Below are positions 55,378 to 61,111 of a stretch of 64,000 nucleotides of DNA, piece by piece. The notes below the pieces were generated by a model. The model ran no database searches. It saw nothing but the letters and a program-made list of their open reading frames with translations, and was not told where the DNA came from. The position numbers and the translations under genes were made by a program. Origin of the DNA: Candidatus Melainabacteria bacterium (GTDB lineage: Bacteria; Cyanobacteriota; Vampirovibrionia; LMEP-6097); NCBI GenBank assembly GCA_005110385.1, contig DUDT01000004.1:62001-126000 (forward strand), given 5' to 3'. Position 1 is the stretch's first letter. Every line of letters begins with the position of its first letter.

Positions 55378-56715
55378 ATGAGGTCTTTAGCTAGTATTGA
55401 AACCCCTTTTATTTTAAAAACCTTTGCCTATGTAATTGGTGCTGTTTTCTTTGTTGCTTTTATTTCTCTGTTTTTGCCTTGGCGGCAGACTATTACTGGA
55501 GTTGGTAAGGTTACAGTGTTTTCCCCGATGAATAGACCGCAGTTAGTGCAGTCTCAGATCAGCGGTAAAATCGTTAATATCTCTATTCATGAAGGTGACT
55601 GGGTCGAGCGAGGTCAGCTTTTAATTGAGCTAGAGGAATTAGAAGAGAAATTTTTAGATAAGTCTCAGTTAAAGCGTTTACAGGGACAGCGCTTAGCTTA
55701 TTTAGATAAACGTAATGCTATCGAAAGGTTAATTAATACTCTAGAAAGGCAGATAAATTCTTTACTTAGAGTTCAGTCAGCGACGGTACCTAATGCTGGA
55801 ATAGAAATTAGACAGACAGAGGATAAGCAAATAGCAAGCCAGCAAAAGCTTAGAGCTGCTGAACAGAATTTTAAAACGGCACAGTTGAATTTTTCTCGTA
55901 GTGAAAAACTCTATGAAAAAGGTTTAAGCTCTAGAAGAGATTTTGAATTAGCTGAATTAGCTTTAGTGAAGTCTAGATCAGAATATGAGGCTTCTACTGC
56001 TGAACTCAACATCGCTGGTAGAGATATAACTCAATCACGTTTTAGTTATGATAAGGTTTCAGCAGAGGCTGCTTTAAAGGTACAAGAAGCAGAAGCTAAG
56101 CTAGCTCAGTCTTTTGAGAAATTAGCTGACATTAATAGTGAGATTTTTAAGTTAGATATTAACTTAGCTAATATGGAAAGTAGAATTACACAGCGTAAGA
56201 TATACGCTCCAGCCGATGGTCAGATAGTAAGGCTAAAGGTTCTAGGTCAAGGTGAGACGGTTAAATCTGGCTCTGATCTATTAACTATAGTGCCTAAAAC
56301 TTCAGATCAAGCTGTAGAACTGTATATCTCTGATGTTTTCGCCCCACTTATAAATACAGGCAGGGAAGTGCGTTTACAGTTTTCGGGTTTTCCAGCTTTA
56401 CAGTTCTCTGGCTGGCCTACTGTAGCTTTAGGCACTTTTCCTGGAATAGTAAAAGTTATAGATGCTAATGCTAATGAGGAAGGTGAATATAGGATTTTAG
56501 TTCAACCTGATTATAAAAGGATAAATTCTAAAAAAGATAAGCCTTGGCCTGATAATAGCTTTCTTAGACCAGGTTCTAATGTAGTGGGTTGGGTAATATT
56601 AGATGAAGTACCAGTTTGGTATGAATTCTGGCGTATCCTAAATGGTTTTCCTCCGACTATGATTAGTAATCCAGCTAAATCTACTTATAAGAGGAAAATT
56701 CCTAAGGTTGGATAA
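55378..56715 (+). CDS. HlyD-family membrane fusion protein
   Basis: Biotinyl-lipoyl-like halves (GKIVNISIHEGDWVERGQLL; IYAPADGQIVRLKVLGQGETVKSGSDLLTIVP), coiled coil. Confidence 0.88.
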   Translation: MRSLASIETPFILKTFAYVIGAVFFVAFISLFLPWRQTITGVGKVTVFSPMNRPQLVQSQISGKIVNISIHEGDWVERGQLLIELEELEEKFLDKSQLKRLQGQRLAYLDKRNAIERLINTLERQINSLLRVQSATVPNAGIEIRQTEDKQIASQQKLRAAEQNFKTAQLNFSRSEKLYEKGLSSRRDFELAELALVKSRSEYEASTAELNIAGRDITQSRFSYDKVSAEAALKVQEAEAKLAQSFEKLADINSEIFKLDINLANMESRITQRKIYAPADGQIVRLKVLGQGETVKSGSDLLTIVPKTSDQAVELYISDVFAPLINTGREVRLQFSGFPALQFSGWPTVALGTFPGIVKVIDANANEEGEYRILVQPDYKRINSKKDKPWPDNSFLRPGSNVVGWVILDEVPVWYEFWRILNGFPPTMISNPAKSTYKRKIPKVG

Positions 56716-56741
56716 GGTTTTTATTGTGCGAGCGGCCCTGT

Positions 56742-57431
56742 TTAAGTTTTAATAATAACCTTGCTCAAACAATTTAACGATTTGCTTAGGATTCTAATTT
56801 GAGGATCTAAATCGACTTTAAGTTCTTCACAGAACTTTTTCCAACTATTAATGATGTCATTTAAAAAATGTGGTTTAGTCAAAATTAATTTAATACCCAG
56901 AAGAGTTGAATCTAGGTTCATATCTGTGCAAAGTTTATTAATATTCTGAATAACATGATTCAGAATATTAGATTCAGGTTCAGACGTGGGTTTATTAATT
57001 AAAATTAAATTCGTTAAAAAACTAGCTAGTTCATTTGAGAGTTTTTTAGGATTTTTGTTTGAGATTTTTTGATGAAGTAGCCGATGTAAATTTCTAGAAA
57101 CATAATGTATATCTAATCCTAGTCTAGAAAATTTTTCATCCTTATGTAACTCTTTCAGAAGATTGTAAAGTTCTGGGTAAGTTTTTTTAATATTAAGATT
57201 AAGCAGAGTTAGAGTATCTAGAGGTCTAGAAAGCAACTTTGTAAAAATATCTATGCCTTGATCTAAATGTTTAGATGAAAGAAAATCAATTAAAAATTGA
57301 CTCAATGCTTGCTTGAAAGATTCTTTAGCTAGAGTACTGGGTGTCCCTGCTGAGCCATTTTTACTACTTCCTATACTTTGTAGTATATTAATCCCAATCA
57401 ATTCTTTTATCCCAACTCCAAAAAGTTCCAT
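56742..57431 (-). CDS. Uncharacterised protein
   Basis: Coherent 229-aa ORF. Confidence 0.55.
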   Translation of the reverse strand: MELFGVGIKELIGINILQSIGSSKNGSAGTPSTLAKESFKQALSQFLIDFLSSKHLDQGIDIFTKLLSRPLDTLTLLNLNIKKTYPELYNLLKELHKDEKFSRLGLDIHYVSRNLHRLLHQKISNKNPKKLSNELASFLTNLILINKPTSEPESNILNHVIQNINKLCTDMNLDSTLLGIKLILTKPHFLNDIINSWKKFCEELKVDLDPQIRILSKSLNCLSKVIIKT

Positions 57432-57539
57432 GTGAAGATTTTATCTTGATTTGGAAATAAATCGTATCACATATGAGGTATTTGATGGAAGAAGCAATTA
57501 GTTAATTGCTGATAATAAATTAGCTAAATGTTTCATTGA

Positions 57540-59099
57540 TTGATCTATAATCGAGGTTTAGATAAGTATATGGCGCATATTCTTTTAGTTTTATTTTGTT
57601 TATTTTTCTCACAGCAAGTTTTTTCTAAAAAAACTATGCAGCCACTAAAGCTTAACGCTAACTTTCTTGAAGAAATAGATTTTCAAGAAAATTTTAATTT
57701 ATATAATTCTGGACTTTTGTTTACTGAAGCTGCGCGCAAGCCTCATAGTGAAAATATCATCTGGGATAAGCTGGAATTTCAAGATTTCCTAAAGCTAGTC
57801 AGTGAGAACCATCCACAGATTTTACAAGCTAAACTTAAGCGTAATCAAGCTAATGCTAAGCGCTTAGAAACCCAAGGTGCTTTCGATCCTTCGCTAAATT
57901 CTAAAAACTCTTATAATATTTATAATAGTTCATCTGATCCGGGTAAGGAGCAGGAGGCTTTCACCTCTTCTAATAGTTTAGATATTTTAACTCGCTATGG
58001 AGCGAAGTTATCGGCTGGAGCTAAGTTTGCAGAAGGGGATATTAAGACACCTCTTTCTCCGACTGGCTCTGGTGGCGAATATTTTATAGAAGCACAGATA
58101 CCACTTTTAAGAGATGCTATTTATAACTCAAAAAATATTAAAGAAAAAAGTGCGATTTTAAATGAAGCAATAGCCGATTTAACTCTATATCGTAAACAGT
58201 TAGATGTTTTGCAGAAAGCGAGTGAATTGTATTGGAAATGGTACGCTAGTTTTAAAGTTCTTGAAGTTGAGAATCATCTGGTGGATTTAATTACAGAGCA
58301 GAGTGATTTCGTGAAAGCTCAAGTGGAGTATGGGAATCTTGCGCAGCTTGCTTATATAGAAGTGAGTACTGAATTACAGAAAAGACTCTTTAAAAGAGCT
58401 AAGGCTGAAAGGGAGGCACAGGAGATGTCCCTTGCTTTAGCTAACTATTTATGGCTAGAAAGTGGCGAACCCTTGGGTTTATTTGCTAAGGATCAGGTGC
58501 CTAATGTTAAAGAAGAAATCGCTCAAGGCTTAGTTCTGGAAAATATAAATGAAGCTAAATTAAAAGCCTTGAAATTTAGACCAGAGTTTAAAGCCATAAA
58601 TTTATCTAAAGATATAGCTATTCTGGAACGTAAATTTGCGAAAAACCAAATGCTGCCTGAATTAGACTTTTTTATTAATCAAGGAGTAGAGACTGGTGAG
58701 GATAGTATAGGACCTACTACTGCTGCTGGCGTGAATTTATCTATCCCCTTAAGAGTCAGAACTGGACAGGGTTTAAAGAAACAGGCTGAATTGAGTTTAC
58801 AGTCTTTAAATCTTGCGAGCAGGGAATTAATGCAGAATGTAATTTTAGAGCTTGAGAACGCTGTCTCTGAACTAGAACAGAGTAAAGCTAAAACTAAATT
58901 CGCTAAAGAAAGTTTAATCTTAGCGAACCAGCTTTTCGAGGGTGAATCTGAAAAATTTAAATTAGGCGACAGCACTTTATTTTTAGTAATTAGAAGACAG
59001 AGGGCTATGGCTGAAGCTAATATTCAGTATTATAAAGCTTTTGCTGATTACAGAACAGCGGAGCAGGTTTTTAAGTTTTTACAGGGTGAGTTGATTTAA
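57540..59099 (+). CDS. TolC-family outer membrane efflux/secretion protein
   Basis: Duplicated helical OEP repeats; clustered with ABC and HlyD-like genes. Confidence 0.85.
   Translation: MIYNRGLDKYMAHILLVLFCLFFSQQVFSKKTMQPLKLNANFLEEIDFQENFNLYNSGLLFTEAARKPHSENIIWDKLEFQDFLKLVSENHPQILQAKLKRNQANAKRLETQGAFDPSLNSKNSYNIYNSSSDPGKEQEAFTSSNSLDILTRYGAKLSAGAKFAEGDIKTPLSPTGSGGEYFIEAQIPLLRDAIYNSKNIKEKSAILNEAIADLTLYRKQLDVLQKASELYWKWYASFKVLEVENHLVDLITEQSDFVKAQVEYGNLAQLAYIEVSTELQKRLFKRAKAEREAQEMSLALANYLWLESGEPLGLFAKDQVPNVKEEIAQGLVLENINEAKLKALKFRPEFKAINLSKDIAILERKFAKNQMLPELDFFINQGVETGEDSIGPTTAAGVNLSIPLRVRTGQGLKKQAELSLQSLNLASRELMQNVILELENAVSELEQSKAKTKFAKESLILANQLFEGESEKFKLGDSTLFLVIRRQRAMAEANIQYYKAFADYRTAEQVFKFLQGELI
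59039..59099 (+). repeat. Direct repeat 1: 3' end of tolC-like gene
   Basis: 61 bp, 58/61 identical to 59754-59814. Confidence 0.93.
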
Positions 59100-59121
59100 T
59101 GACATTAAGATTTTTGAATCA

Positions 59122-59661
59122 CTAGATATTAAAACCTATTTTTTTATTAGAGGCTTTATCGGGAAGGATCATGCTTTTAATTACAGCTATAACATCTTTT
59201 ATTTGACTATCATGCTCAGAGAGCTTTTCTTCGATATTATTAATTTTCTTGGCTAAGTCTTGGTTAGTGGCTAACATTGAACGCATTTTAGTAAATGCTC
59301 TTACTATTTGTATGCTTGTGTGGACAGCAACTTCACTATTTAAAATGGAGGCTAGCATAATAGCACCATGTTCTGTAAAGGCATTAGGATTTGAATTAGA
59401 GTATTTCAACTTATTAAATCTCTGAAAATTTATAAGTAATTTATTTTTTTCTTCTTTGGCTAATCTAAACATAAAATCAGAGGGAAAGCGGTTTTGATTG
59501 CGTTTAACCTGCTCATTTAGTCTCTTGGTGGTAACTCCATACAAACTAGCAATATCACTATCTATTAGGACATTCTGTCCCCTCAATTCAATTATTAAGT
59601 CTTCTATGGATAAGACTATATCTAATTTTGATTGATCTAGAATTTTAGATTTATTGGGCAT
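59122..59661 (-). CDS. ORF6N-domain protein
   Basis: IIELRGQNVLIDSDIASLYGVTTKRLNEQVKRNQNRFPSDFMFRLAKEEKNKL...NPNAFTEHGAIMLASIL; ATG at 59661 preferred over the GTG in the hairpin at 59691. Confidence 0.92.
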   Translation of the reverse strand: MPNKSKILDQSKLDIVLSIEDLIIELRGQNVLIDSDIASLYGVTTKRLNEQVKRNQNRFPSDFMFRLAKEEKNKLLINFQRFNKLKYSNSNPNAFTEHGAIMLASILNSEVAVHTSIQIVRAFTKMRSMLATNQDLAKKINNIEEKLSEHDSQIKDVIAVIKSMILPDKASNKKIGFNI

Positions 59662-59663
59662 GA

Positions 59664-59698
59664 TTTTTAAGTGGTCGCAAACTGCGACCACTTAAAAA
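59664..59698. promoter_or_regulatory. Perfect 16-bp inverted repeat abutting the ORF6N start codon
   Basis: TTTTTAAGTGGTCGCA-aac-TGCGACCACTTAAAAA. Confidence 0.85.
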
Positions 59699-59753
59699 AG
59701 CATATCTAAACTGATAGAAGATGAAAAATTAATGAGTAAATTAACTTAAATTA

Positions 59754-59814
59754 TTTTGCTGATTACAGAACGGCGGAGCAGGTTTTTAAATTTTTACAGG
59801 GTGAATTGATTTAA
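59754..59814 (+). repeat. Direct repeat 2: detached copy of tolC-like 3' end
   Basis: Encodes the identical peptide FADYRTAEQVFKFLQGELI* with three synonymous differences. Confidence 0.93.
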
Positions 59815-59872: not shown

Positions 59873-61111
59873 ATGAGTCAAAGTTCTAGTCTTCTTGTAG
59901 ATACTCCTAAGCTCCCGGTAACTGTACTATCTGGCTTTCTTGGTGCTGGTAAAACCACTTTATTGAACCATATCTTAAATAATCGAGAGGGATTAAGGGT
60001 CGCTCTAATCGTCAATGATATGAGTGAAGTGAATATAGATGCTGATTTAGTGAATCGTGAATCTACTTTAAGTAGGACTGATGAAAAATTAGTAGAAATG
60101 TCAAATGGCTGTATCTGCTGCACTTTAAGAGAAGATCTTTTACTGGAAGTGAAGAAATTAGCTGCTGATAATCGTTTTGATTATTTAGTTATAGAGTCGA
60201 CTGGGATTTCTGAGCCGATGCCTATCGCAGAGACCTTTAGTTTTGAGGATGAAGAAGGAAGTTCACTATCTGATATCGCTAAGCTAGATACTATGGTAAC
60301 TGTGGTAGATTCATTTAATTTTCTGAAAGATTATGGCTCTACGGATTTTCTCTCTGATAGAGAGATGGCACGTGATGGTGAAGATGTTCGTACTATAGTG
60401 GATCTTTTGCTCTCACAGATTGAATTTGCAGATGTAATAATTCTGAATAAATTAGATTTAATTAGTGATGAGGATACAGCTTATTTACGTAAAATGATTA
60501 AAGCTTTAAATGAGGATGCGAAGATAATTGAAGCAGTAAACGCAGCTGTACCTCTAAAAGAGGTTTTAAATACTGGTCTTTTCGATATAAATAGTGCAGA
60601 AGAGAATCCTGAGTGGATGGAGTCTCTGAAAGAAGAAGATAAATCAGAAGCCGATGAGTATGGCATTACTAATTTTACTTATGTCGCACGTAAACCATTT
60701 CACCCACAGCGTTTACGTAAAGTCTTTGATGAAGAGTGGCCTGGGGTAATTCGCTCTAAAGGTTATTTTTGGTTAGCGAGTAGAATGGATAAGGTGGGTT
60801 TCTGGTCACAAGCTGGAGCTATCTGTCAGAGTCGTATGGCTGGTTATTGGTGGGCGGGAGCGCCAGCAAGCTTCTGGCCAGAAGATGAAGCGACGGTAAA
60901 AGAAATTAAATCTTCATGGGTAGAGCCTTTTGGTGATAGAAGACAAGAATTAGTAATTATCGGTATTGATATGGATAAAGAAGCGATTATAAATAAGCTG
61001 GAATCCGCTCTGCTAACGGAAGATGAACTCGCTTTGGGTGAAAAGGCTTGGCTTGAGTTTAAAGATCCTTTTCCAGTATGGGGTGAGATGGAAGAAGCGG
61101 TGGCTGTTTAG
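59873..61111 (+). CDS. CobW/ZNG1-family GTPase metallochaperone
   Basis: [42 protein letters not shown]; CobW C-terminal domain. Confidence 0.94.

Follow-up and report, generated by a model that had tools for sequence, protein, structure and literature searches.

A single ORF6N gene between two copies of a tolC 3' end, and the recurrence of such single-gene insertions at other gene ends

How can a single accessory gene move if it has no transposase? The question is raised by a locus of Candidatus Melainabacteria bacterium, where a lone ORF6N-domain gene lies between two copies of the 3' end of a tolC-like gene. We analysed the surrounding 64,000 nucleotides (contig DUDT01000004.1 of assembly GCA_005110385.1, positions 62,001 to 126,000; hereafter the window, to which coordinates refer), which are part of a draft genome of 1.9 Mb in 25 contigs. 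The junction between tolC and the neighbouring cobW-like gene contains the following features.

57570..59099, plus strand: intact tolC-like outer membrane efflux protein gene (OEP, PF02321), 92% identical to its orthologue in the same-genus genome G001; the open reading frame opens at 57540 (TTG), with an ATG at 57570
59039..59099, plus strand: upstream 61-bp repeat copy, the functional tolC 3' end by repeat alignment and codon comparison
59100..59753, no strand: insert of 654 bp, missing from G001 on comparison
59122..59661, minus strand: ORF6N-domain gene (PF10543, PHROG) for a phage anti-repressor-like DNA-binding protein
59664..59698, no strand: palindrome with 16-bp arms and core GGTCGCAnnnTGCGACC, directly before the ORF6N start, a candidate operator
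59754..59814, plus strand: downstream 61-bp repeat copy, read as a displaced tolC 3' end remnant, its 3' flank matching the empty-site genome G001
59873..61111, plus strand: cobW-like gene (Pfam; G001 comparison), the downstream neighbour of the insert

The two repeat copies start 715 bp apart and are identical at 58 of their 61 positions (95%). Their three mismatches (ACA/ACG, AAG/AAA and GAG/GAA) are each synonymous in the tolC frame, and both copies retain the native tolC stop. Past this stop, a weaker match between the copies continues for about 16 bp with a 2-nt gap. The ORF6N gene is the only gene of the insert, and the ORFs around it include no evident recombinase, integrase or transposase (ORF list, with Pfam for the nearest ORFs). 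In these respects the alignment and profile searches bear out the first-pass annotation, which had described the two copies with their coordinates and three synonymous differences, the ORF6N gene between them and the absence of an encoded recombinase. Outside single ORFs and local duplicated-gene arrays, the 583 kb searched in G000 and G001 yielded no other repeat with a score of at least 30 and a spacing of 350-1300 bp.

Comparison with G001 suggests which copy stands at the original position. There, tolC and cobW are adjacent with one gene end, the kind of empty site that the first-pass annotation had proposed to look for in relatives. In the 58 bp that separate the tolC stop from cobW, the flank of the downstream copy shows a single mismatch to G001, and the flank 3' of the upstream copy does not match. 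Since only the downstream flank matches, the downstream copy occupies the ancestral junction, and the insert parts it from the rest of tolC. For the direction of change, insertion is the simpler reading and not a proof: had G001 lost the segment through recombination of one copy with the other, the outcome would be alike.

Two further differences between the genomes were noted at this locus. At 56715-57641, the window has a 229-aa ORF (56742-57431, minus strand), whose family is unknown, together with a different tolC signal-peptide region, at the place of a 115-bp stretch in G001; this may be another single-gene insertion, one at the opposite end of this tolC gene. In addition, the G001 cobW orthologue (L028, G001:C50) is frameshifted and internally deleted, with remaining parts that are 96-99% identical, and is followed by a gene that, read from its sequence, resembles a type I methyltransferase subunit.

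G001 also serves as an outgroup for the three mismatches. At ACA/ACG and AAG/AAA the downstream copy agrees with G001, and at GAG/GAA the upstream copy does, which places two changes on the functional tolC and one on the remnant. The first-pass annotation had taken the synonymous-only divergence as a sign that the insert had imported its own version of the gene end. Once polarised, this pattern was rejected as proof of import at the tolC locus: since the functional gene, where synonymy is expected, bears two of the three changes, import is not compelled, and duplication followed by drift could give the observed polarity. The argument for import thus appears weaker here than it looks.

A second way to obtain two diverged copies is homology-facilitated illegitimate recombination (HFIR) with a related strain that already had ORF6N beside tolC, the copies then being donor and resident alleles. 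One joint would be a crossover in tolC and the other an illegitimate join, 61 bp short of the resident tolC end. This mechanism, known from transformation and invoked for the displaced 3' gene ends of Vibrio T6SS arrays (PMC5361080, PMC3240628), would account for the synonymous-only differences, for the diverged flank past the stop of the upstream copy, and for a step in third-position divergence from G001 at the junction (0.194 in tolC, 0.076 overall in cobW). However, the tolC value is typical of the genome (median 0.18 over 60 ORF comparisons), so that tolC does not look imported, and cobW owes its low divergence mostly to its second half (0.036 in the last part, about 0.107 in the 5' part). 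Moreover, no relative with tolC-ORF6N in the absence of the duplication was found. The low cobW divergence hints, not decisively, at an exchange that involved the cobW side. The step (P 0.007) lost force as proof of a breakpoint, given other genes at 0.05-0.10 in the genome and the value of the 5' part of cobW. Hence, we consider HFIR between related strains unlikely.

The same step, together with the 25-contig state of the draft, would also fit an assembly chimera of two strains. Yet if an assembler had made a join across a 61-bp overlap, both copies and the gene between them would not have been kept, and the same anatomy is shared by several independent genomes, for one of which sister genomes show empty sites. 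A chimera is therefore very improbable.

The nature of the inserted gene bears on the agent of its movement. Its product has 179 aa from the ATG at 59661 or 189 aa from a GTG at 59691. The PF10543 profile is matched nearly end to end (E 8e-31, 106.6 bits for a cut-off of 27.8; residues 32-116, profile positions 2-86 of 86), and PHROG anti-repressor families are matched as well (best 1.2e-21). An AlphaFold2 model (pLDDT 82) has a well predicted N-terminal domain and a long helix, and neither a structure search with this model nor a sequence search gave a confident PDB match; a role as nuclease or recombinase, judged on the model, was dropped. We infer that the ORF6N protein is a probable passenger, an anti-repressor-type regulator rather than a DNA-moving enzyme.

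The palindrome of the window lies two bases from the ORF6N start codon. Palindromes of the form GGTCRCAnnnTGYGACC or TGTAACCnnnGGTTACA stand upstream of 35 of 183 ORF6N genes versus 4 of 375 other genes, a contrast that is partly built in, the motif having been composed after inspection of ORF6N upstream regions. As such palindromes are commoner before ORF6N genes than before other genes, this element is probably the operator through which the protein would control its own promoter.

We looked for similar arrangements around other ORF6N genes, sampled from relatives and from GTDB genomes. Among the first 109 ORF6N loci, a direct repeat spanned the gene in 17, with 0.13% for cross-locus pairings; random positions in the same loci gave repeats in 16 of 542 trials, several of these being one repeat counted repeatedly. 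Because this position control showed that repeats are common in some loci, a stricter test was adopted, in which the repeat must lie near the gene on both sides. Tight flanking repeats were then found for 11 of 172 ORF6N genes versus 3 of 501 other genes in the same loci (Fisher P 4e-5), and 9 versus 3 were left after removal of one ORF6N array tail and one dispersed repeat (P 4e-4).

In seven cases, the window included, an ORF6N gene sits at a duplicated gene 3' end, and both the target genes and the duplicated sequences differ. The targets, named by Pfam, are tolC (window), glyQ (L205), a DUF4127 gene (L040), a D12 methylase (L035), an Eco57I-like methylase (L041), a zincin (L100) and an amidohydrolase (L122). 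The first-pass annotation had proposed a search for ORF6N genes between duplicated gene 3' ends, and six further ones are thus at hand. The insertion of a single gene with a duplicated gene end in the window is real and of a kind that recurs. In two other loci (L154, L230), the duplications are intergenic and abut the ORF6N coding sequence. Duplication lengths range from 16 to 213 bp across cases. Most inserts hug the ORF6N gene, with roughly 510-960 bp and one gene each, sizes that the search window favours. Nor is the pattern limited to ORF6N genes: a crude test showed direct repeats of 32-85 bp on either side of 3 of 30 ParE-toxin loci in relatives (L252, L264, L269), which may parallel the ORF6N insertions; this count gives no general rate for accessory genes. 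Our literature searches on ORF6N mobility gave no paper on the subject.

Several repeats were not retained. Those at L074 and L123 were set aside as tails of adjacent ORF6N gene copies, and those at L191, L177, L194 and L179 resemble copies of a dispersed intergenic repeat rather than target duplications. The survey also brought up other arrangements. ORF6N genes stand in tandem arrays of two or three at L164, L166, L170, L184 and L209. At L090 (831-2528), repeats between consecutive ORFs next to an ORF6N gene resemble a gene-cassette array. The methylase ORF of L041 (1-1464) contains short repeats, many matching both strands, that turn up dozens of times in G036, G027 and G022. A 2,955-bp plasmid of Segatella copri (NZ_CP152354.1) has an ORF6N gene and is a possible small circular carrier.

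At glyQ, the copies are identical over 33/33 bp and end in the tails LEK* and TKV*; at DUF4127, they are identical over 23/23 bp, with tails NY* and RVV*; at the D12 methylase, the core is identical over 16/16 bp, with tails SM* and T*. In these three loci, the last few residues and the stop of the upstream copy come from the insert, and the downstream tail differs. In G023 and G053, the DUF4127-gapA junction is empty, with the two genes directly convergent. Since they align with the downstream copy of G013, this copy is the original end at that locus, and the insert gave the upstream one a new tail and stop. Copies that are identical and then abruptly end, as at glyQ and DUF4127, are unlike the allelic divergence that HFIR would leave.

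At tolC, the Eco57I-like methylase and the amidohydrolase, the copies differ by synonymous changes only. When tolC, L041, L122 and L100, loci that were found by their high identity, are pooled, there are 10 synonymous and 2 nonsynonymous codon differences between copies, an excess with P ~0.004 under duplication followed by decay with a constrained functional copy (small sample, simple model). Hence, the import claim of the first-pass annotation, which is not compelled at the tolC locus, gains some support from the pooled codons.

These joints bear on whether the insert could be a dedicated minimal mobile unit that targets gene ends. Such a unit would consist of ORF6N and an attachment segment with its own version of the target gene end, would be moved by a recombinase in trans, and would restore the target gene as it inserts, in the manner of integrases at tRNA ends. 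The independent occurrence at seven gene 3' ends speaks for it, as do the inserts of one gene, often with an operator, the three loci with synonymous-only copy differences, and the replacement tails with stop codons at glyQ, DUF4127 and the D12 methylase. On the other hand, the targets and the duplicated sequences all differ, with no common core site seen by eye, and the duplication length is variable. Intergenic duplications, similar repeats at ParE toxin loci and the absence of a nearby recombinase argue in the same direction. The gene-end-targeting cassette proposed in the first-pass annotation keeps its empty sites and its other duplicated ends, and loses ground through the ParE repeats and the three loci where identical cores carry a new tail. 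Overall, we find a dedicated unit doubtful. We hold as equally doubtful the broader view that ORF6N genes with operator palindromes would be widespread recombinase-less single-gene mobile units, which in many phyla would occupy gene 3' ends and supply a substitute tail and stop.

We favour instead, with a probability of about 0.6, that the event in the window was a variant of 'insertion with long target duplication', through host recombination of incoming DNA and without a self-encoded recombinase. The last 61 bp of tolC, perhaps about 77, would have been duplicated on insertion, the upstream copy keeping tolC functional and the downstream copy remaining as a relic beside cobW. As the insert carries no recombinase, host recombination acting on incoming DNA would be the most likely agent. 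It may have proceeded by one-sided joining anchored by homology or microhomology, or by a single crossover of a circularised fragment that bore a gene end. The bias for gene ends would probably reflect selection, an insert being tolerated only where the gene still ends normally. A ComEC homologue in the window's genome is compatible with DNA uptake and is not proof of natural competence. Two findings speak against recombination of incoming DNA: the insert borders lie close to ORF6N, tidier than expected of random captured DNA, and the pooled copy divergence is more synonymous than duplication and decay predict. At the joints, which were read by eye, no donor sequence or microhomology was identified.

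The recurrence of these events in unrelated bacteria points to a general, poorly understood entry of single genes that have no transposase of their own. They provide concrete insertions on which recombination models can be tried, and they are a way for genes to acquire altered C-terminal tails (LEK at glyQ, NY at DUF4127).

Several known systems come close to the arrangement in the window. By profile, its protein is in the same family as phage anti-repressors with an ORF6N domain; unlike these, its gene stands alone in the chromosome, with no prophage genes seen nearby. Integrases that use tRNA or other gene 3' ends and restore them from attP likewise leave a rebuilt gene end upstream and a remnant downstream, whereas the ORF6N cases have no integrase, no shared target gene and a variable duplication length. 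HFIR and single-crossover integration are also able to leave a displaced 3' gene end without a site-specific recombinase, but most reports of them involve deletions and inserts that are larger and less gene-exact. In an E. coli experiment, duplications of 109-950 bp arose when incoming circularised DNA integrated by a single crossover (PMC3240628). The closest parallel is insertion with long target duplication, documented for restriction-modification (RM) genes in Helicobacter pylori (PMC1643837 and PMC4978471, citing Nobusato 2000). As described in these citing papers, the H. pylori events likewise bring in an accessory gene without a transposase, with a long direct target duplication and an empty site in a relative, and the window has the direct target repeat, the empty site in G001 and no linked recombinase. 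Compared with these accounts, the insert in the window is one ORF6N regulator gene instead of an RM system, a cargo that is frequent in such events and no strict requirement, the duplicated segment is a gene 3' end, and the ORF6N cases come from phyla other than that of H. pylori. With seven gene-end cases, of which two have empty sites, and with the similar repeats at toxin loci, the pattern of RM genes extends to stand-alone phage-type regulators.
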